IMG/VR virus record: IMGVR_UViG_3300025767_000166
Span: 1 to 20,450 of that record
Direction: 5' to 3' (one strand)
Source of the DNA: a virus
Length of the DNA: 20,450 nt
Position 1 is the first letter of the stretch. Each line of letters starts with the position of its first letter. Made by a program: the position numbers and the translations under genes. The notes beneath the pieces are model-generated. The model saw nothing but the letters and a program-made list of their open reading frames with translations. It was not told the DNA's origin and ran no database searches. Below, one piece after another: positions 4,730-20,450 of this stretch.

Positions 4730-4739
4730 TATAAATATT
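4730..4739 (-). promoter_or_regulatory. late-type promoter motif before the 698-aa gene
   Basis: The sense strand reads AATATTTATA, overlapping the stop codon of the polymerase-like gene by two bases and ending 21 bp before the ATG at 4708. This placement is the main reason for choosing 4708 as the start. Confidence 0.6.
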
Positions 4740-6006
4740 AAAGTTTTCCATAATCCGTTCCCCAATCAGCGCTTATAGGAAATCCAAAGGATTCTATAAT
4801 TTCTTTTAATTTTTTAGCATGTTCTTTAGGGGTATCTAACGGAAATGAAAATAAGAATGAATCATAAGTGTATAAAGTCAACTCGATTTCGGTTTGTTTC
4901 AAAAACTCCATCACTTTCTTCATTACCCCCATATTCAACTCAGTTTCAGTCGCTTGTAGTAAATAGTTAAATACCTTTTGAGGGTTCGCTCCTTCTATAC
5001 TACTCAGAGGGATTCTCCTATGTTGTGTTTGAAGATATCCCACTTCAGTACTCTTACTCCATAATTTATCAATAAACTCTCTAACACCCTTATAATAAGG
5101 TATTTCATCGAACTCCTCAGGTATACCCCCATATAGTAGTTGAAAGGTAATTCCCTTTGATTCATCGTATGGAACTCCGTATTGGTCCGCTAACCATTGG
5201 TGTACGGATGTTTTCGGTAATTCATAATCAATCAACTTCCCAATAATTCGAGGGTGATATGCATCGTAATCCATTTGTAGGAAGATACTATTCTCCTTTG
5301 GTACAAACACTTCTCTCGTTCCATCTTTTTTGTTCAAAGCCGAAAAGTTAATTCCACCAAATCGGTTGGATGGGCGGGAGGTAATGGTGTATGGATTGTA
5401 TTCGGTGTATAGGATGTTATCGGATAGGTGTTTTGTGGCTTGAGGCCATCTATCAAGAAATTTTTCCTCTTCGACCCGAACCCCAAAACGTTCTATATCT
5501 GAGAGAAGGGGAATCATCGTATTATCAATCCAAGAAGGAGATGGAGTAGGTAATGAGAATGAATCAACAAAAGATGTAAGATATTCACTCCACTTCATTA
5601 AAGGTGCAATCTTTCCTAAATTCTCTCTAATACCCAAACGAGTATAATGTGTGATGAAAGGTTGTTCTTCGGGCTTATAACCCAACATACGATTCTCATT
5701 AAAGAAGGTGTAGTTGGATATATCAAATAAATTTTGTATCTTTGTACCCATTTGTAATAAACCTTTCTTATTCCATACCCACTTTGGTTGTGTGGAGGTT
5801 GAGAGGTCTAAATGTTGGGATTTCCCATCAATATGGTTATATATGAGTATAAAGTTAGTATTTCCTATCACAACAAATAAGAACGAAAGTTCGTTATTCA
5901 TTGGATGCTTCTCCAAATCACTCCAAACAGGAATGATGGTGGATGGCTCAGATTCCCATCTTTTTAGGAATTCTTCTTTCTCTTTTGTGGACTCTACTAC
6001 AATCAT
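4738..6006 (-). CDS. compact family-A DNA-polymerase-like protein, 422 aa
   Basis: The C-terminal half carries the ordered core motifs of DNA polymerase I. TSRPSNRFGGINFSALNKKD leads to REVFVP (about 209-236; Pol I TGRLSS..NLQNIP..R.AFVP). Motif A is QMDYDAYHPRIIGKL with Asp246. SVHQWLADQYGVP follows (267-279). Motif B/O-helix is KGITFQLLYGG with Lys284, Phe288 and Tyr292. QATETELNMGVMKKVM (351-366) fits the AER.A.NTPIQG.AAD helix region. Motif C is YTYDSFLFSFP with Asp382. Both catalytic aspartates are kept, but the position of the Pol I steric-gate Glu710 is His251, Arg754 is Tyr280, and HDE is Tyr-Asp-Ser. The N-terminal 100 residues, with SDLE at 29-32 and a hydrophobic strand, may be a worn 3'-5' exonuclease domain (weak). 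No 5'-3' nuclease is present. It has its own host-type promoter and would be translated from an almost leaderless mRNA. Active enzyme versus divergent relic cannot be decided here. Confidence 0.82.
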   Translation of the reverse strand: MIVVESTKEKEEFLKRWESEPSTIIPVWSDLEKHPMNNELSFLFVVIGNTNFILIYNHIDGKSQHLDLSTSTQPKWVWNKKGLLQMGTKIQNLFDISNYTFFNENRMLGYKPEEQPFITHYTRLGIRENLGKIAPLMKWSEYLTSFVDSFSLPTPSPSWIDNTMIPLLSDIERFGVRVEEEKFLDRWPQATKHLSDNILYTEYNPYTITSRPSNRFGGINFSALNKKDGTREVFVPKENSIFLQMDYDAYHPRIIGKLIDYELPKTSVHQWLADQYGVPYDESKGITFQLLYGGIPEEFDEIPYYKGVREFIDKLWSKSTEVGYLQTQHRRIPLSSIEGANPQKVFNYLLQATETELNMGVMKKVMEFLKQTEIELTLYTYDSFLFSFPLDTPKEHAKKLKEIIESFGFPISADWGTDYGKL

Positions 6007-10786: not shown

Positions 10787-13408
10787 TTATATTGCGTATG
10801 AATTACTACCTACCTTACCTACCACTTTTGAGATTGCAGCAGTAACTTTCTGCCCATCCATATAAACTCCAACTTTACCACCATTAAGGTCAGCTCGTAA
10901 TCCTTTAATTTCTTCTATCAATGAGGATTCACCCCCACCTCCACCTTCATCACCACCAATTCCCAATAAAGAACCAACTCCCATTGCGATTGTTCCAACA
11001 GCAGCAACTGCCATCAAACCAGGTAGAGCAGTAATACCAGCTAAACCAACTAATGTTAATGAACCAGCCAATCCAATTAGTGCTAATGATAATGCGGCAA
11101 TAGGTGCTATATATTGGAACATACCACCTAACACATCTTTAACTTGGGCGATAAGTGATACTACACTTCCCATAGAACCACCAATTGCTTGAAATCCGGC
11201 TGCAGCAACTAATAAACCAGCACCTAATACCACCATCGATGCACCCAATCCAGCCAATGCAAGTAAACCAGCTCCAAATACAACTGCCCCAACTCCACTA
11301 CTCATCAATAATCCTAATCCGAAAATTGCGGCTGAGAAAACTACTAATCCAGCTGCAGCTGCCATTACTGAACCTATATCTAATCCAGCAATTAAATTCA
11401 TTGAGAATGCAAATGGAATAAGTGCTGCTCCTAAAATAGCCACAGCAACTGCACCCTTAATCATTTCACCTTTAGCCTTTCCTAAGATATATGCTATTCC
11501 AGCTAAACCAGCTAAACCAACTAACCCCATCGTAACAGCAGGCCAAGTTACACTACCAAACTCTTGGAATGCTTTAGCGGCAACGAATAGTGCTGCTGAT
11601 AAAATAAGGATTGCTGCAGCACCTTTTAGTAAGCTACTTGCTTTAGGTCCTTTACTACCTGCGGTTTTATTTAATTTATCATTAACTGAAGTTTGTGGTA
11701 CTTTTGATTTTGCACCATCTAAGACTTTAGTTCCACCTTTAGTTCGTATCATCTTACCTTGCGGTGAATCTTTATGGAATAGCTTACCAGATTTGGACTT
11801 AACCATATCACCACCACCCATACCTAAAAGTGATTTGAATTTTTGACCTACACCACCAACGATACCTTTCATAGTATCACCGATACCTCCCAAATTAAAT
11901 CCCATTTGACCAGCTGCAATTGCAGCTGAACCAAGTGTATTAAGTAAACTCAAACCTTGCTCACCAACACCCATTAGGGTTTCCTTCATAGCTTGATACT
12001 GAGATACTTGAATTGAACCATCCTTATTCAACTTATCAGCATTGGTAGCCATCTTTTGGAATTCCTCAACCGATACACCTAATAATGCTGCGGTTTGTTT
12101 CTTTTGGAAGTAATCCATTTTATTGAATTCTTCTATACCACCTAATGATGATAGTGTTTCTCTAACCGCTCCACCAATATCACCTTCGTATGCTAATGCT
12201 CTAGCCCTATCTAAGTTGATGTTTCTACCTAACATTGCTCCCAATTCCAACTCAGCGTTGATTGAAGATTCAAAATCTAATAGGTTATCGGTTACTGCAC
12301 TAATTTGAGACATGGATACACCCAACTTACCAGCAGCAATTGCTGCTTCAGCTATGTTTGTACCACCATCTTTACCAAATAATGCAAATGCTTCAGCTGA
12401 ACCAGCTACATCAGACATAATATCGGCTGGAACTAATCCATTCTGCATTGCTAACTCTTTGGTAGATACCATTAAGTTTTCTGCGGTTTCTGCCGAACCA
12501 TCATTCAACCTAGCAAATGAACCAGTTAGTTTAGCACTTTCACCAGCACTAATACCTAAGTTCTTAGCTAATATGTTTGTTCTGAATTGTGTTTGTAAAG
12601 ATACATCGTTTAATCCACCAAATTCTTTCGAAAGGGATTTTGTAGTTTCAACCGCATTTGGGAAAATTGTTCCAAATAAAGTGGTTGATATGTTTGTATT
12701 ATCTAATAATTGTCCACCTAATTCTCTTTGAGTTGATAATAATTTACCACCAGCTACCGAAGCTCCAATAAGTGCACCACCTAATACTCCACCAACAGTT
12801 GATGTAAGTAAAGATGCGGTTTCTAGTATACCACCAATAGTATCCTTTATACCCTCATAAACATTTTTTTGCTTTTGAAGAAACTCTTTTTGTTTATTGG
12901 TTAATTGTGAATGTGAGTTTGCTAATTCGTTTTGTTGGGTTAAATTACTTACAATATCTTGATGCTCATCAGATATACCATCCAATATGGATTTTTGCAT
13001 ATCATATTCGGCACGTAATGCAGCTTGTTGTAGTACATCCTCTCTACCCAACTGAGCCAACTCTTGATTTATTTGAGCCGTTCTCTTTATTGCTTCCTCT
13101 TGTTGACCCGTTAATCCATGAGCCTTTACTTGAGATAATAATCGTTTTCTATCTAATTTTACTAAATCATCATACATAGAACCCATAGATGATATGGAGG
13201 TTTCCTCCGAAGCTAACCCCTTTATTCTTTCTAAGTTTAGTTTTTTTAACTCTCTACCTAATTCTACAACTTTCTTTTTTTGGTCATCAACAAGTTGATT
13301 TTGCTTCTCTTGAGATAGGGCATTATCTTTCCTAAGCTCACGAATGCGAACTTCTGCTTTCTCAATATCCTTTAGGACATCTAACCTATCCCTTATATCA
13401 TCAGCCAT
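10787..13408 (-). CDS. tail tape measure protein, 873 aa
   Basis: It sets tail length during tube polymerisation and is expelled into the host at infection. Residues 1-190 are strongly charged and heptad-rich (coiled coil; ELRKDNALSQEKQNQLVDDQ and LGRELKKLNLERIKGL). Next comes a hydrophobic/Gly segment (192-222, IGGILETASLLTSTVGGVLG), a globular part with SAGESAKLTGSFARLNDGSA, and LGVSVEEFQKMA near residue 460. From about 590 to 810 a series of Ala/Gly/Leu-rich segments can span or insert into membranes, as in many tape measures. A Gly-rich break (GGDEGGGGGE, about 815-824) leads to a C-terminal VGVYMDGQKVTAAISKVVGK segment. It is the largest gene of the window and lies next to the chaperone region, as in other tailed phages. 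At about 0.15 nm per residue the tail would be near 130 nm. Confidence 0.88.
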   Translation of the reverse strand: MADDIRDRLDVLKDIEKAEVRIRELRKDNALSQEKQNQLVDDQKKKVVELGRELKKLNLERIKGLASEETSISSMGSMYDDLVKLDRKRLLSQVKAHGLTGQQEEAIKRTAQINQELAQLGREDVLQQAALRAEYDMQKSILDGISDEHQDIVSNLTQQNELANSHSQLTNKQKEFLQKQKNVYEGIKDTIGGILETASLLTSTVGGVLGGALIGASVAGGKLLSTQRELGGQLLDNTNISTTLFGTIFPNAVETTKSLSKEFGGLNDVSLQTQFRTNILAKNLGISAGESAKLTGSFARLNDGSAETAENLMVSTKELAMQNGLVPADIMSDVAGSAEAFALFGKDGGTNIAEAAIAAGKLGVSMSQISAVTDNLLDFESSINAELELGAMLGRNINLDRARALAYEGDIGGAVRETLSSLGGIEEFNKMDYFQKKQTAALLGVSVEEFQKMATNADKLNKDGSIQVSQYQAMKETLMGVGEQGLSLLNTLGSAAIAAGQMGFNLGGIGDTMKGIVGGVGQKFKSLLGMGGGDMVKSKSGKLFHKDSPQGKMIRTKGGTKVLDGAKSKVPQTSVNDKLNKTAGSKGPKASSLLKGAAAILILSAALFVAAKAFQEFGSVTWPAVTMGLVGLAGLAGIAYILGKAKGEMIKGAVAVAILGAALIPFAFSMNLIAGLDIGSVMAAAAGLVVFSAAIFGLGLLMSSGVGAVVFGAGLLALAGLGASMVVLGAGLLVAAAGFQAIGGSMGSVVSLIAQVKDVLGGMFQYIAPIAALSLALIGLAGSLTLVGLAGITALPGLMAVAAVGTIAMGVGSLLGIGGDEGGGGGESSLIEEIKGLRADLNGGKVGVYMDGQKVTAAISKVVGKVGSNSYAI

Positions 13409-13417
13409 AGAGAGTTA

Positions 13418-13630
13418 TTACATTTTAGAGATTCTATCTAAGATAGCATCTAATTCTTCTTTATCTTTTTGAAGTTTCGCCATCACATCTGTCAGCTCTT
13501 TAGGTGCTCCAGCTTTTCTAGCCTTATCTAACATTCTGTTTGATGCGTTTTTAGATAACCCATCAAAGAATGCATCAGAGAATTTTTTGGCTGCTGAAAA
13601 CAAACCTTCGTTTACTTTATCTTTTGACAT
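13418..13630 (-). CDS. small charged helical protein upstream of the tape measure, 70 aa
   Basis: It lies 9 bases before the tape measure and is the first gene after the late-type motif at 13658-13667, so it is transcribed with it. The product is a short, highly charged helical protein (MSKDKVNEGLFSAAKKFSDA, FDGLSKNASNRMLDKARKAG, then LQKDKEELDAILDRISKM), likely two helices. I know no family. By position it could be a co-chaperone or a second small tail-assembly factor next to the gp26-like protein, which is inference only. Confidence 0.65.
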   Translation of the reverse strand: MSKDKVNEGLFSAAKKFSDAFFDGLSKNASNRMLDKARKAGAPKELTDVMAKLQKDKEELDAILDRISKM

Positions 13631-13676: not shown

Positions 13677-13709
13677 AAAAGTGAGGATTATCTATTAACC
13701 CTCACTTTT
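13677..13709 (-). terminator. intrinsic terminator after the chaperone extension
   Basis: A 10-bp stem (AAAAGUGAGG at 13709-13700 with its complement at 13686-13677) with a 13-nt loop is followed by a run of seven U in the minus-strand RNA. The extension's stop codon (13690-13688) lies in the loop, so the two are compactly fitted. Confidence 0.75.
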
Positions 13710-13894
13710 GATTTTCGTTCTATTTTTTTATGTTCTTCAGCTTCCTTCTTCTTTAAGTCAACCAACTTTTTGAAGTAGAATTTCCTCCATTGTATAGGCA
13801 TGAAGTAAACATCTCTCCAAGTAAACCCATTACCGAAGTTAACCAACTCCCAAATTTGATTATGAAGTTGGATACTATAATCATTCGGAAGGGT
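13688..13894 (-). CDS. C-terminal extension of the tail assembly chaperone, reached by frameshift (68 aa)
   Basis: This frame is +1 relative to the gp26-like gene and overlaps its last codons. It reads TLPNDYSIQLHNQIWELVNF, then GNGFTWRDVYFMPIQWRKFY and FKKLVDLKKKEAEEHKK, ending at a TAA. The composition (aromatic core, then a Lys/Glu helix) looks like a real tail-assembly-chaperone C-terminal domain, but the stretch has no ATG before 13801, in the middle of the recognisable part. The two frames meet at a run of seven T (13901-13895) read as TTT TTT T in the upstream gene. A P-site Phe-tRNA slipping forward one base (or back two) on this run would join them into a 321-residue protein. Tail assembly chaperones of phages commonly make such a G/GT pair; the position between tail tube and tape measure fits. 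A TTG start (at GAG-TTG-GTT) or ATG 13801 (36 aa) are the non-frameshift alternatives. Confidence 0.65.
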   Translation of the reverse strand, partial: TLPNDYSIQLHNQIWELVNFGNGFTWRDVYFMPIQWRKFYFKKLVDLKKKEAEEHKKIERKSKVRVNR

Positions 13895-14654
13895 AAAAAA
13901 AGTTTATCCCAAATGGGATATCTAAGGTCTCCTCCTCCCCTGTCAACTCTGAAGTAAAGTTGAACTTTAAATCCATATCAGGGCTGATTTCTTTTACGAA
14001 CTTTCTAAATGCTTTAGTATCTAATGCTAAGAATCCATTTTGAACCCATTTAGTAATGTATCCTCTATCTTGGTTACCATCTACTGATTGAATCATATAT
14101 TTCAAACGAGTAGTTACATCAAATGAAGTATCACCTTTACCTTTGTACAATCTAGCTAATGCTTGATTTTCTTTGGTAATTTCACTTTCATCACCATGTG
14201 TAAGTAGTTTGAATTCTAATTCAGCTCCACTCTTTGGTAATTTAAATTTGTAAAGATTATCACCATTTAAAATTTCTTCATTGAAATCTTTTGTTCGTAC
14301 CTGTGATAAATCAATAGTTACATTTTGATTTTCTAATGTGAATGGGTCAGTTACCTCTACTTGGTAATCTGCACCATAACCCATTACTCTAGTTGCAAGT
14401 AGAATAGCGTTCTTATCACCAATAAAGATATCATTGATATCCACATTTGGTTCTACAACTACTGATTCGAATAGTTTATCTAAAACTACACCCTTTTTGA
14501 TTAGAGATTGAGAAGAAAGGATATCTTCTTCCCTTGCAGTCATATATTTGATTTCGATATTCCCCTTTCTTAGTGGGTGTCCTTCTGGATATACTAATCC
14601 CTTTGAAGGTAAATCGATAATTTCCGTTGGAAATTCAAATTTTGTATCGCTCAT
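13881..14654 (-). CDS. gp26-like tail assembly chaperone / baseplate protein, 257 aa
   Basis: The start ATG at 14654 lies 22 bp after a late-type motif. The N-terminus has the pattern of the T4 gp26-type baseplate protein family: EIIDLPSKGLVYPEGHPLRK, NIEIKYMTAREEDILSS, LIKKGVVLDKLFES, IGDKNAILLATRVMGYGADY. The middle has LTHGDESEITKENQAL (about residues 153-168). The C-terminus reads DIPFGINFFYPSE and stops at 13881. The gene sits after the tail tube and before the tape measure, the location of tail assembly chaperones, and its end coincides with a seven-T run where a shift would add the extension encoded at 13688-13894. T4 lays out gene 26 and gene 51 similarly upstream of the tape-measure gene 29. 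The family call is firm; the chaperone role is an inference from position and the apparent frameshift. Confidence 0.83.
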   Translation of the reverse strand: MSDTKFEFPTEIIDLPSKGLVYPEGHPLRKGNIEIKYMTAREEDILSSQSLIKKGVVLDKLFESVVVEPNVDINDIFIGDKNAILLATRVMGYGADYQVEVTDPFTLENQNVTIDLSQVRTKDFNEEILNGDNLYKFKLPKSGAELEFKLLTHGDESEITKENQALARLYKGKGDTSFDVTTRLKYMIQSVDGNQDRGYITKWVQNGFLALDTKAFRKFVKEISPDMDLKFNFTSELTGEEETLDIPFGINFFYPSE

Positions 14655-14704: not shown

Positions 14705-14737
14705 AAAAAAAAAAGGTTCTCACTAAGAGAACCTTTT
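14705..14737 (-). terminator. strong intrinsic terminator after the tail tube gene
   Basis: A perfect 11-bp stem (AAAAGGUUCUC with GAGAACCUUUU, 14737-14727 and 14721-14711) and a 5-nt loop are followed by a U run encoded by ten A on the plus strand (14714-14705). It may also work weakly in the other direction. Confidence 0.85.
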
Positions 14738-14762
14738 CTATTATTAAAATATTTATTGTATT

Positions 14763-15251
14763 TTAGAATTCCAAAATAGCGTAATCATACGATAACGTTA
14801 ATTCGATATCAGCGGCATCATTAGAAGAGAAATCTAAATCATTGAAGTTAGCTGCCTGAATAAATGCTCCTTTTAGTTTCCATTGTTCAATCTTATCACC
14901 AACAGGACCTAACATATAAAAATCAATATCCTTTTTGTAGAAATCAGCGTAACCTTTTCTACCAGTTAATGATTCATATCCTAAACGTACCCATTCCATA
15001 ACTTGCTGTGCGCCTGATGGTACAATTGGGTCATATAATGTGATTGTTATATCTTGCCACTCACCCTTACCTTGTAATTTACGATAAGTGTTAATGTGGT
15101 CCAACTTCACAGTTTCGAATGTGATAGATGGTCTCGCCGCTGTTTTTATTAAGTATGATTGAATACCATCAATCTCCATAATAAATCGGTTCTTCATCTT
15201 CGGTTCGAAGTTGGTGAAGAACATTTCGTTAAATTCTAATACTTCTGCCAT
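14763..15251 (-). CDS. tail tube protein (gp19-like), 162 aa
   Basis: This is the tube through which DNA passes, stacking as hexamer rings on the baseplate. Length (162 aa; T4 gp19 is 163) and pattern match the T4 gp19/gp54 tube fold: NRFIMEIDGIQSYLIKTAAR, PSITFETVKLDHINTYRKL, QGKGEWQDITITLYDPIVPS, VMEWVRLGY, then a final AANFNDLDFSSNDAADIELT and LSYDYAILEF. No signal peptide or Cys. It follows the sheath gene, preceded by a late-type motif (AATATTTATT, one mismatch) 22 bp before the ATG, and a terminator closes it. High tube expression would fit its having an almost private transcript. Confidence 0.93.
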   Translation of the reverse strand: MAEVLEFNEMFFTNFEPKMKNRFIMEIDGIQSYLIKTAARPSITFETVKLDHINTYRKLQGKGEWQDITITLYDPIVPSGAQQVMEWVRLGYESLTGRKGYADFYKKDIDFYMLGPVGDKIEQWKLKGAFIQAANFNDLDFSSNDAADIELTLSYDYAILEF

Positions 15252-15301: not shown

Positions 15302-17614
15302 TTATGCCGAGAACGATGCTCCAGTTGGTAAGATGTTGAAATCAATTACAATGAATTCAGCTGTCTTAGCCGGTTGTAAGAAAATCTGTCCAGCAAGTAT
15401 GTTTCTATCAACCACATCAGGTGTGTTGTTAGATTCATCCATAACTACTTTAAATGCGTACAATCCTTGTCTTTGTTGGATACCCTCTAAATAAGGTTGT
15501 ACAGTGTTGATAAATCTACCTCGTGTCTGAGCGGTATTTTGTTCGAACACTAAGAATCTAGAAGTAGATGCTACAAACTTCTTAACAGTAATCAACAATC
15601 TTCTCACATTGATTCTATCCAATGCTGATGCTTTATCTTGCAACGTTTTCTGTCCGAATGCCACAATACCTTGTCCAGGGAAAGTTGCTATTGGATTTAC
15701 TTTGTTTTCGTATAAAGTATCTCTTTCAGAATGTGTTAATCTATTAAGAACTGAAACTGCTCCTACAATACCACCTCTATTCAAACCAGCAGGTGCGAAC
15801 CATTCAGCTGCAATAGCGTCATTTGCTGCAAATACAGCTGGCATCAATACTGATGGTGGAACTGAGATTAGTTTGTTAGTATTCGTATCTACTGTCTTAA
15901 CCCAAGGGTAGTAAGAACCTATGTAGTTTGAATCGATTGCGTTAGCTTGAGTAGTTGCCTGAGCGATTGTATCATTTACTGTTGTTAAATCAGCGATGTA
16001 AAATGCATCTGAACGGGCTTCTACCATATCCAATACATCAGTTACAACTGAAGTATGTAATCTTCTTACAATACCCGGAGTTACAACCATATTGATATCA
16101 TACTCATCAGCGTTAGAAATTGCGTTCACAGCTTTAGCGTATGCAACAGAACCACTAGCGGTTGAATCAGTTAAATCAAATCCTTGTGAGTTACCAGCAG
16201 AAATTGAACTTCCTAATGCAATCTCTCTAGCAGGACTCATACCATCAAATCCACCTTGGAATGCTAATGTGAATTGTCTCTTAATCATATCAACACTATC
16301 CGAACCAGTCATTTCCATTGTTAAACCAACTCCACTTACATTTCCATCAAATCCGAAATCTACGTTTGAACCTACTCCTACACCTTCAGGTAGTGGTTTC
16401 AAATAGTTAGCGTTATCAGTTTTTACACCAGTAGTTTCGAAATCGAAACCAGCGTATTGATATGGATTACCAGTTGAGTTAGAAATTGAAGATGTTTGGA
16501 ATACAACAGATGGAACGATTGTTTCATCAGTTGCTAATATTGGGTTAGTGTAAGCTCCATGTCCGAATGGTGCAGCTGATACAGGGTAAGAACCTTGTGC
16601 AGCAACCTCTACTCTAATGTAGCTTGAGTTGTTTAACCAATCCCCATTTTCAGTAATCTTACCATTAGAATCGATAGTCATATATCTATCACCAATTACT
16701 CTTGCGATATAGTTAGGTGATGATGGGTCTAAGTTTACGTTGTTGAATGATTCCAATACAACTTTTCTCTTATCAGTATCAGCGAATCCTCTAATAGTTA
16801 CTGAGAACGTTGAGTAATCAGTTGAACCATCTTCACCAGCTGCCTTCACACCAGATATAGAAACTTTGAAACGAGTATTCTCATTATTACCATGACCTAA
16901 AGTATGGAATTTGAATAAGTCGTATCTTTCACCAGAGATAAGTTGTGATTTTACAAACGGAGTAGATGCTTCACTTGCATCATATGTAAAGTTTTGTGTT
17001 GGTAAAGCCTCAGCCAATACAGCGTTTCCACCAGATACTTGAAGATTCATATCACTTACTGTGTTACCAAAGTAAGAATATACATACCCATCTTTTAAAC
17101 CTAATGGTGATTTACCAAATACATCAGTTACATCATTGTTAACATTTGATAATAATGAAGATGAAACCTCACCAATACCAGAACCACTTACTACAAATGA
17201 ACCAGATGTAGTTAAAGATGAATTTACACTAAATCCATCAAATCCAACTTCTTCATCACCATTATTAGTTGAATGAATAGTTGAAATCAACTTTACAGTA
17301 CCATCTGAACCACTAGCAACTAAACCAATAGGTGCTACTTGGTTATATCCACCAATACCAGCCGTTCTAACAACTGTTACACTTCCTGCTTCTCTTAAAT
17401 AGTTTTGTACTGCATATTCCGTATAGTAAGTACCATCCGGTGTACCAAATTTATCTTCAAACTCAGATTGAGTTCTAATGATTGTTGGAACGAACGCTGG
17501 TCCTTGTTTGAAAGGTCCTATAAACGCTGCTCCTATTTCTCCTACACCTTGCGATAAAAACGAAAGGTCATTTTCTCTCGTAAATACTCCAGGTGATACA
17601 ATTCTTTCTGCCAT
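15302..17614 (-). CDS. tail sheath protein (gp18-like), 770 aa
   Basis: The contractile outer sheath. The N-terminus MAERIVSPGVFTRENDLSFL, GVGEIGAAFIGPFKQGPAFV and PTIIRTQSEFEDKFGTPDGT are typical phage sheath opening motifs. The conserved C-terminal region has INVRRLLITVKKFVASTSRF, FEQNTAQTRGRF, QQRQGLYAFKVVMDESNN, and DRNILAGQIFLQPAKTAEFI. A Ser/Thr/Gly-rich stretch (about residues 100-420), with beta-rich inserts such as YSTFSVTIRGFADTDKRKVV, probably forms the protruding domains, and makes this sheath longer than T4 gp18 (659 aa). The start ATG at 17614 is preceded by GGAG at a normal distance and lies 39 bp after a late-type motif. Upstream is the 129-aa gene; downstream the tail tube. 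Confidence 0.94.
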   Translation of the reverse strand: MAERIVSPGVFTRENDLSFLSQGVGEIGAAFIGPFKQGPAFVPTIIRTQSEFEDKFGTPDGTYYTEYAVQNYLREAGSVTVVRTAGIGGYNQVAPIGLVASGSDGTVKLISTIHSTNNGDEEVGFDGFSVNSSLTTSGSFVVSGSGIGEVSSSLLSNVNNDVTDVFGKSPLGLKDGYVYSYFGNTVSDMNLQVSGGNAVLAEALPTQNFTYDASEASTPFVKSQLISGERYDLFKFHTLGHGNNENTRFKVSISGVKAAGEDGSTDYSTFSVTIRGFADTDKRKVVLESFNNVNLDPSSPNYIARVIGDRYMTIDSNGKITENGDWLNNSSYIRVEVAAQGSYPVSAAPFGHGAYTNPILATDETIVPSVVFQTSSISNSTGNPYQYAGFDFETTGVKTDNANYLKPLPEGVGVGSNVDFGFDGNVSGVGLTMEMTGSDSVDMIKRQFTLAFQGGFDGMSPAREIALGSSISAGNSQGFDLTDSTASGSVAYAKAVNAISNADEYDINMVVTPGIVRRLHTSVVTDVLDMVEARSDAFYIADLTTVNDTIAQATTQANAIDSNYIGSYYPWVKTVDTNTNKLISVPPSVLMPAVFAANDAIAAEWFAPAGLNRGGIVGAVSVLNRLTHSERDTLYENKVNPIATFPGQGIVAFGQKTLQDKASALDRINVRRLLITVKKFVASTSRFLVFEQNTAQTRGRFINTVQPYLEGIQQRQGLYAFKVVMDESNNTPDVVDRNILAGQIFLQPAKTAEFIVIDFNILPTGASFSA

Positions 17615-18389: not shown

Positions 18390-20450
18390 TTACTTTTTAT
18401 TTAATAATTGTTTCATCATTTCTTTCATCTCTGAAAGTTCTGATTTTAAATATTCAATTTCTTCTTTTTGAGTTTCAACAATCTCTTTTTGTTCGTTGAT
18501 TGCGTTTACCAATAACGGAACAACTCTATCGTACTGAATGGTTTTATAATCATAACCCAATCTCTCAGCCTTTGGAGCAGGGTGTACGATTTCAGGTAAA
18601 ATTGATTCAACATCTTGAGCAGAAAGACCAATTTGTACTTCGTTTCCTTCGTACCCAATCATATTGGCTTCTTTGTTGTTTCTGTAATAGAAACCATTCA
18701 ATTTACCAACCTTATCTAAAGCGTTCTCAATATCACCAACTTTATCCTTCAATCTCATATCAGAATAGTAAGCGATAACATCACCTTCAGCATAAACCCA
18801 ATTGTTTACTCTAATACCACCCGAGTCAGCTCTCATTTTCCATCCACCATTGTAGTAGAGGTAAGTGTAAGAATTGTTTACACCCTGTATAAAGGTTTCA
18901 TTGGCCTGAGTCTTTAATTCCATTGAGTTTGAGTCATCATCAAACCGTAGACGTGAACAAATTGTACCATTCGAATCTCTAAATAAAAGTTCTCCATTAT
19001 CTGAACTATTTGAACCTATACTTAGTGAATCTGCATCATCATCCGAAAAGTACCAACCATTATTCCAAGTAACACGGTTGATAGTCATTGTGTTTAATCT
19101 GGAATCACTAGCAGGGTTTACATAGTAATCAGTATTATTACTATCATAGAAAATAGGTGCTCTTAATGAATTTGCTGCAGTTAAATAGTTGTTTACATAA
19201 ATGTATCCAGAAGAATACATTTCCATATTTGTTCTACGAGTACCACCAGTATCAGTATTATAGAAATAAGTGTGTCCAGTGGTTGAGAACCTCATATAGG
19301 CCTGTCCAAATCTAGTGTTAGGTCTACCAAAGTAGTATGCACCACCACCACCATTTAGTGCGTTATCAACATTATATCCAAATCCGGCCCAATCCCAAGT
19401 GTTACCTGGTTCAGATGCCCACATTTGTAAAACAACTTCACCAGTTCCAGCACCATTGTTACCAGATTCAAGAGATACTCTCATTGCTGAGTTTCCATGG
19501 TCTCCTCTTACATGCAATCTCTTAGCAGGTAACCCATATCCAACTCCCAATTGCCATAATCTAGAATCACCATTACCATCAATTCTATATGCGGTATCGT
19601 TCGAATCATAGAATATTGGTGCTCTTAACGAATCTCCAGCTTGTAGGTTGTAGTTAACATACACATTATTTCCTCCCAATGGGTCAGTTGCGTTGTTCAC
19701 AGACATCACCTGAGTTGCCATAGTATAATCATTGTAGAAACGCATACCATTATAGTTTGCGTTTGCTCCAAACTTAATACCTGTATGGAATGCGATTCTT
19801 AAATCAGGATATCTATAAGACCAACCACCCGATTCTCTAAAGATTGCATATGCTGAACTTCTATCAGATGAGAAGTACATACCATATGTTGTATTTGATG
19901 ATACACCAACTCTATTTCTTAAATCGTTTGACCGATGTGAATTAAATACAGAAGTACCATTCGGGTCAATGTAATATCCAGTATCATTTGAATCATAGAA
20001 TTGTGGTGCACGGAATGAATTTTCCGTATAAACCTGCCTATCATTGGAAATCCACATAATAGAAACATTGTTACCACTACTCCAACCCCTACCGATACCA
20101 TAATGTGGATTCGTATTGTTTGGTGAATATCCAAAGTGTAAAGAAGTTGCGTTTGTTGCAGCCGTACCAATTACCCAATGTTTAAAGTTACCCGAAGATG
20201 CATTTGAAGAAGTTGCGTTTGTTGCAGCCGTACCAATTACCCAATGTTTAAAGTTACCCGAAGATGCATTTGCACCATCATAACCAACGAATCTTAAAGT
20301 AGGTCCGTGAGTACCATTATTTATCTCAGAGGACATTAAGTTCAACTGAGGATATTGCCCTTTAATGGTTAAATCAGGTCTACGAGTTTCTTCTACTACA
20401 CCATTATATAAATTCGATTCATCACCGATGTGAATACGATATGGAACTCT
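18390..20450 (-). CDS. tail fibre with C-terminal S74 self-cleaving chaperone (5' end outside window)
   Basis: The frame is open to the window edge (686 codons visible; the earliest residues read RVPYRIHIGDESNLYNG), so the start is upstream; a TTG at 20345 is not a credible start. It is a receptor-binding fibre. The shaft has three spaced modules of the form SxRAPxFYDSNxTxY (near 20010, 19615 and 19150), each followed by a variable beta segment. The last 124 residues, from the Ser codon at 18764-18762, form a peptidase S74 intramolecular chaperone: SDMRLKDKVGDIENALDKV, then NGFYYRN, VQIGLSAQDVESILPEIVHP, KTIQYDRVVPLLVNAINEQ, and a coiled coil ending in KQLLNKK. In this family the domain trimerises the fibre and then cuts itself off just before the SDxRxK serine. 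A perfect 66-bp tandem duplication lies at 20141-20272. It is the first gene of the visible late region. Confidence 0.9.
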   Translation of the reverse strand, partial: RVPYRIHIGDESNLYNGVVEETRRPDLTIKGQYPQLNLMSSEINNGTHGPTLRFVGYDGANASSGNFKHWVIGTAATNATSSNASSGNFKHWVIGTAATNATSLHFGYSPNNTNPHYGIGRGWSSGNNVSIMWISNDRQVYTENSFRAPQFYDSNDTGYYIDPNGTSVFNSHRSNDLRNRVGVSSNTTYGMYFSSDRSSAYAIFRESGGWSYRYPDLRIAFHTGIKFGANANYNGMRFYNDYTMATQVMSVNNATDPLGGNNVYVNYNLQAGDSLRAPIFYDSNDTAYRIDGNGDSRLWQLGVGYGLPAKRLHVRGDHGNSAMRVSLESGNNGAGTGEVVLQMWASEPGNTWDWAGFGYNVDNALNGGGGAYYFGRPNTRFGQAYMRFSTTGHTYFYNTDTGGTRRTNMEMYSSGYIYVNNYLTAANSLRAPIFYDSNNTDYYVNPASDSRLNTMTINRVTWNNGWYFSDDDADSLSIGSNSSDNGELLFRDSNGTICSRLRFDDDSNSMELKTQANETFIQGVNNSYTYLYYNGGWKMRADSGGIRVNNWVYAEGDVIAYYSDMRLKDKVGDIENALDKVGKLNGFYYRNNKEANMIGYEGNEVQIGLSAQDVESILPEIVHPAPKAERLGYDYKTIQYDRVVPLLVNAINEQKEIVETQKEEIEYLKSELSEMKEMMKQLLNKK
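20141..20272 (-). repeat. perfect tandem duplication, 2 x 66 bp, in the tail fibre gene
   Basis: Copies 20141-20206 and 20207-20272 are identical base for base. The unit is 22 codons, so the frame is kept and the protein repeats a block containing ASSGNFKHWVIGTAATNATS twice. No other part of the fibre repeats at this level of identity, which points to a recent event or an assembly artefact. Confidence 0.95.

Follow-up and report, generated by a model that had tools for sequence, protein, structure and literature searches.

A gp26-family tail chaperone gene that probably makes a short and a long product by a +1 ribosomal frameshift in a T4-superfamily contractile phage

In a T4-superfamily contractile phage, a single gene between those for the tail tube and the tape measure very probably yields the short and the long tail assembly chaperone alike, by way of a +1 ribosomal slip. 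The stretch analyzed here (the window) is an IMG/VR virus record of 20,450 bases. As judged from sequence comparison, most ribosomes would read the gp26-like frame to its stop at 13881 and release a short form of 257 amino acids, while a fraction, with tRNA-Phe on TTT, would slip +1 onto the TTT that overlaps it (in the family, TTY), read past that stop, and complete a minor product of 321 amino acids containing the junction peptide ...FGINFFTLPNDY.... By analogy with lambda gpG/gpGT, from which both roles are taken as described in a major review (PMC5009743), coating of the tape measure protein would fall to the short form, and the long form, through its additional helical domain, would bring in tail tube subunits; given these roles, slip frequency would set the ratio of the two forms. 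That the ribosome is the agent that slips, and how often it would do so, we infer from the arrangement of the junction. Identification as a tail assembly chaperone rests on gp26 family membership, the conserved slip, and the link of the extension to T4 gp51 through relatives with a -1 frame. A T-run frameshift giving short and long tail assembly chaperones was what a previous, sequence-only reading of this DNA had proposed, and it stands as the best account.

The minus strand of the window carries a contractile-tail module (Table 1), in which the gp26-like gene occupies the place of chaperones of the lambda G/GT type. The tape measure candidate resembles the protein annotated as tape measure in Flavobacterium phage immuto (32% identity over 183 amino acids, E 3e-14). 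Because terminator-like hairpins flank both sides, gp26 and its extension look like a transcription unit of their own; the downstream hairpin covers the last codons of the extension. The 70-amino-acid open reading frame (ORF) that follows gave weak Pfam and PHROG matches, all subthreshold, and Mel-JY01 has a 71-amino-acid ORF in the equivalent position (locus L082, 4069-4284). Elsewhere in the window, a 422-amino-acid protein encoded at 4738-6006 (minus strand), inside the structural gene block, showed a partial match to family A DNA polymerase (PF00476, E 2e-7, below the cutoff). Near the contig end, a perfect 66-bp tandem duplication (20141-20272), possibly an assembly artifact, falls in frame within the tail fiber gene (18390-20345).

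Table 1. Positions of genes and junction elements in the window
Feature	Position	Strand	Basis or remark
Sheath gene	15302-17614	-	Contractile-tail module
Tail tube gene (gp19-like), upstream neighbor of the gp26-like gene	14763-15251	-	PF06841 E 1e-9; PHROG 4542 tail tube
Intrinsic-terminator-like hairpin between tail tube and gp26-like genes	14709-14739	-	Fold
gp26-like gene, short form (257 aa), 0 frame	13881-14654	-	PF12322; PHROG 150
Candidate stimulator: stem-loop TATCCC-ATTT-GGGATA, 3 nt upstream of the T run	13905-13920	-	Fold; enrichment
Stretch open in both frames (23 nt)	13881-13903	-	Frame reading
Slippery run TTT TTT T, proposed +1 step site	13895-13901	-	Conserved in relatives
+1-frame extension, about 70 residues from FF, long-form domain	13688-13899	-	dN/dS 0.081; profile matches; fold
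Intrinsic-terminator-like hairpin over the end of the extension	13677-13709	-	14 pairs plus T run
70-aa ORF	13418-13630	-	Between chaperone extension and tape measure gene
Tape measure candidate, downstream neighbor	10787-13408	-	Similarity to immuto tape measure protein

The gp26-like protein is a member of the T4_baseplate family (PF12322; E 4.8e-7, 30.1 bits against a cutoff of 24.5) and aligned with positions 10-232 of the 282 in PHROG 150. The extensions of some -1 relatives match the same profile from position 231 onward, so PHROG 150 already includes the fusion. The short form and the extension were folded separately, not as the fusion. AlphaFold2 modeled the short form with a mean pLDDT of 91, and in BFVD its strong Foldseek matches were models of T4-like baseplate hub (assembly) and chaperone proteins. 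Against the PDB, Foldseek returned no significant match for the short form (the HK97 chaperone 2OB9 was listed at rank 15, with a probability of 0.18 and a TMt of 0.38). A profile search of solved structures gave nothing.

The junction has the anatomy that the sequence-only reading had described: the gp26-like stop (TGA, 13883-13881), the T7 run (13901-13895), and the extension stop (13690-13688) all lie where it placed them, and skipping one base in the T run gives exactly the 321 amino acids claimed for the fusion. Directly upstream of the overlap, a TAA (13906-13904) terminates the +1 frame, so any shift must fall within 13903-13881, which reads as the tail of an AAC codon and then TTT TTT TAC CCT TCC GAA TGA. 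Among 80 close IMG/VR relatives (86-100% identical), TTTTTTTACCC (T7 plus ACCC) was unchanged in every one, while neighboring codons vary. A sequencing error in the T run, whose conservation had been named as a check on the frameshift, is ruled out by the identical T7 in 80 contigs. Across 42 distinct close sequences, both Phe codons of the slip are always TTT, whereas the other Phe columns mix TTT and TTC (13 of 13). Together with selection on the extension, this invariance of T7 and of the two Phe codons argues that the junction arose neither by chance nor by sequencing error.

The extension is under purifying selection: beyond the overlap its dN/dS was 0.081, against 0.087 for gp26 itself and about 1.5 when the same bases were read in the other two frames. 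A +1 extension of at least 60 amino acids was present in 195 of 195 readable relatives, and it is predicted to form a small helical domain (pLDDT 80). The alternative -1 frame of 43 codons, dismissed from the outset, is open in the close relatives and mostly short elsewhere (often 3-12 codons), which leaves it without conservation outside the close group. A possible identity of the extension with DUF6760 (PF20546), a small family that in bacterial contractile injection systems neighbors PF12322, found no support: of nine extensions, with bacterial relatives sampled from one MAG contig, none matched it, or any Pfam family, meaningfully.

Further IMG/VR searches and a phage collection gave 267 loci with a readable gp26 end; a distant alignment (A1) was too diverse for locus search. 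Wherever a +1 extension is present (208 distinct gp26 genes), the junction holds TTT followed by T or C, spelled TTT TTT T, TTT CTT, TTC TTT T, TTT CTA, or CTT TTT T, and in all of them the P-site tRNA could re-pair one base 3'. The lone exception flagged by script (L084) also fits when read by hand (AAC TTT CTA). This set, with identities down to about 25%, includes Mel-JY01, immuto, SP-15, LIS04, GXN1, and RM378. In the Mel-JY01 record the extension is misannotated as a TTG-started overlapping gene, and in that of immuto as a 36-amino-acid ORF.

Only two motif-less relatives were found in the +1 clade, L182 (TTC TTG TAT) and L187 (TTC CTT TGG). Both lack TTT, and both carry an extension that starts with ATG just after the gp26 stop. 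In the gp26 tree they form a fully supported pair nested inside the +1 clade and adjoining immuto, so motif loss and start gain count as one event rather than two. The coincidence of this loss and this gain in a single lineage is the best evidence that the motif joins the frames. Finding the extension in a relative as an ATG-started gene of its own had been named beforehand as a result that would speak against the frameshift. Such genes do exist, but in exactly the two relatives that have lost the slippery codon, and they therefore argue for it.

These two genes also favor reading the extension as a separate small gene translated by re-initiation after gp26 termination, as do some -1 relatives with an ATG just past the stop (S-SSM7, where it is annotated as gp51). 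This coupled translation seems barely credible for the window, where, as had been pointed out, no ATG occurs in the first half of the extension; the earliest ATG falls midway through the conserved core (FMPI), and the earliest TTG at 13846. In 139 of 170 distinct +1 extensions, ATG is absent from the first 30 codons or from the whole extension, and an independent start would leave the frozen TTT codons unexplained. The size of the step had been given as +1 or -2. A -2 step with full Phe pairing is possible in 158 of 208 relatives, the window included, yet it is impossible in the other 50, whereas +1 fits all 208 with their TTT-T/C; the +1 step is favored on that account, and a -2 step appears highly improbable.

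Across 65 representatives, windows adjoining the slip had a mean folding z of -1.0 +/- 0.17 relative to synonymous versions (background, -0.14), and values of -0.3 to -0.5 persist for about 60 nt upstream. Of the 65, 29 had a stem of at least 5 pairs whose end lies no more than 6 nt from the slip; the synonymous controls gave 14.2 +/- 3.1, and among the -1 relatives the number was 2 of 13. Covariation in the stem was weak, with p 0.03 for pair 11-20 and none at pair 8-23, so what is supported is an excess of stems rather than a fixed stem register. The 5' stem-loop is a lead as a candidate stimulator. Other signals were sought around the slip: no downstream RNA structure stood out (z -1.4), the codons right after the slip include no stop and none that is obviously slow, no clear or consistently spaced Shine-Dalgarno-like element was seen (by eye in aligned relatives, unscored), and Rfam gave no match.

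The same stem-loop raises the question of whether RNA polymerase slips instead, the 5' hairpin causing one U to be lost (or two gained) in some mRNAs, from which normal translation would give the long form. A hairpin at 13920-13905, 3 nt before U7, has the layout of stem-loop-mediated transcriptional slippage, described for a Roseiflexus insertion sequence element by Penno et al. (2015) as summarized in the review (PMC5009743); T7 with a 5' hairpin suits such a mechanism, as does the excess of 5' stems over synonymous controls beside the slip. However, relatives with TTTCTTT, TTCTTTT, or TTTCTAT keep the +1 layout without a long T run, and the hairpin is present in 9 of 9 TTTCTTT representatives (probably related to each other) but in 17 of 48 with T7, the reverse of what polymerase slippage predicts. 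The -1 relatives, moreover, mostly use a classical ribosomal heptamer. Polymerase slippage is therefore unlikely, and a +1 slip by the ribosome remains the preferred explanation. It is conceivable, if rather doubtful, that the 5' stem-loop is a new forward-frameshift stimulator that let the lineage switch from -1 to +1, or else drives polymerase slippage in T7 members. As a stimulator, it would refold behind the ribosome and push it +1; as a driver of polymerase slippage, it would mean that the chaperone ratio of T7 members is set in the mRNA.

A homologous extension is found in the -1 frame in cyanophage S-SSM7, Cronobacter phage S13, Vibrio phage R10Z, Caulobacter phage Cr30, OLIVR5, and AS-yj, as well as in Xanthomonas phage X1, Stenotrophomonas phage Yut2, Sinorhizobium phage phiM9, marine virus AG-345-O18, and a jumbo-phage clade (L089, L273-275). 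The slip site of these relatives is mostly T TTT TTC (U UUU UUC), with GAT TTT TTT in Cr30 and TCT TTT TTG in phiM9. Profile comparison showed +1 and -1 extensions to be homologous (hhalign E 7e-8) and the -1 extensions to be related to the C termini of T4 gp51 (E 2e-11); the +1 profile compared directly with gp51 C termini was not significant (hhalign probability 4%). By way of the -1 forms, the extension is indirectly linked to the gp51 C terminus. Both T4 gp26 (208 amino acids) and gp51 (249 amino acids) belong to PF12322, and gp51 has an extra C terminus that gp26 lacks. The suggestion that the two are a chaperone pair gains support from this family membership and from the link of the gp51 end to the extension.

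Two side observations concern how these -1 extensions are arranged or recorded. In Vibrio phage K369 (L294, ~2155-2180) the extension is joined at A CTT TTC, without a canonical heptamer and with an ATG closely after the stop; this may be another lineage moving to a separate extension gene. In S-SSM7 (L290, 2172-2363) and phiM9 (L292, 2187-2366) the records call the extension "gp51 baseplate hub assembly catalyst" and place its start no earlier than the gp26 stop; judging by the junctions, it may instead be made as a gp26 fusion.

In a gp26 tree built with the junction columns removed, the +1/-1 label required at least 2 changes, against about 12 to 14 with shuffled labels; the T4 branches are long and their placement is unsure. 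One protein family thus shows three solutions to the ratio of chaperone forms: (i) a -1 slip, (ii) a +1 slip, and (iii) separate genes, whether as T4 paralogues or as a detached extension. Their occurrence in one family makes it a clean case for studying how recoding signals disappear or come to act in the other direction, and the comparison bears on the purpose of T4 gp26 and gp51.

Chaperone frameshifting itself is known, and the split of the T4 function into two genes, as cited, was published in 2022. The major review describes the tail chaperone frameshift as widely conserved "except T4" (PMC5009743). The title of Vladimirov et al. (2022) refers to the chaperone genes of T4-like phages and to a mechanism that is not frameshifting; in two later papers, it is cited for a short gene plus a longer fused gene (PRFect) and for poly-T -1 signals in T4-like TAC-N (Adele). 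In the open-licence papers searched, neither a +1 version in the gp26 family nor the change of direction nor the stem-loop 5' of the slip was found to be reported; to that extent, the family-wide +1 form, the switch, and the hairpin seem new.

Among known systems, the lambda gpG/gpGT gene resembles that of the window in being one gene with two forms between the tube and tape measure genes, with a slip just before the stop; lambda shifts -1, whereas the window gene would shift +1 at TTT-Y, and the likeness shown is one of layout. Likened by description, the chaperones of Vandenendeviridae were reported to frameshift -1 (PMC12846349), in contrast to the +1 proposed for the window, and that of the haloarchaeal myovirus HSTV-2, with a host from a different domain, was reported as very likely +1 (PMC5009743), like that of the window. 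Closer are S-SSM7, S13, R10Z, Cr30, OLIVR5, and AS-yj, which have the gp26 family in common with the window and a homologous extension in the equivalent place; most -1 T4-like chaperones use U UUU UUC, whereas the window clade uses TTT-Y and the +1 frame. In T4 itself, gp26 corresponds to the short form described here and gp51 to the short form plus the C-terminal domain: what T4 encodes as two diverged genes on opposite strands, the phage of the window would make from one gene by a +1 shift.
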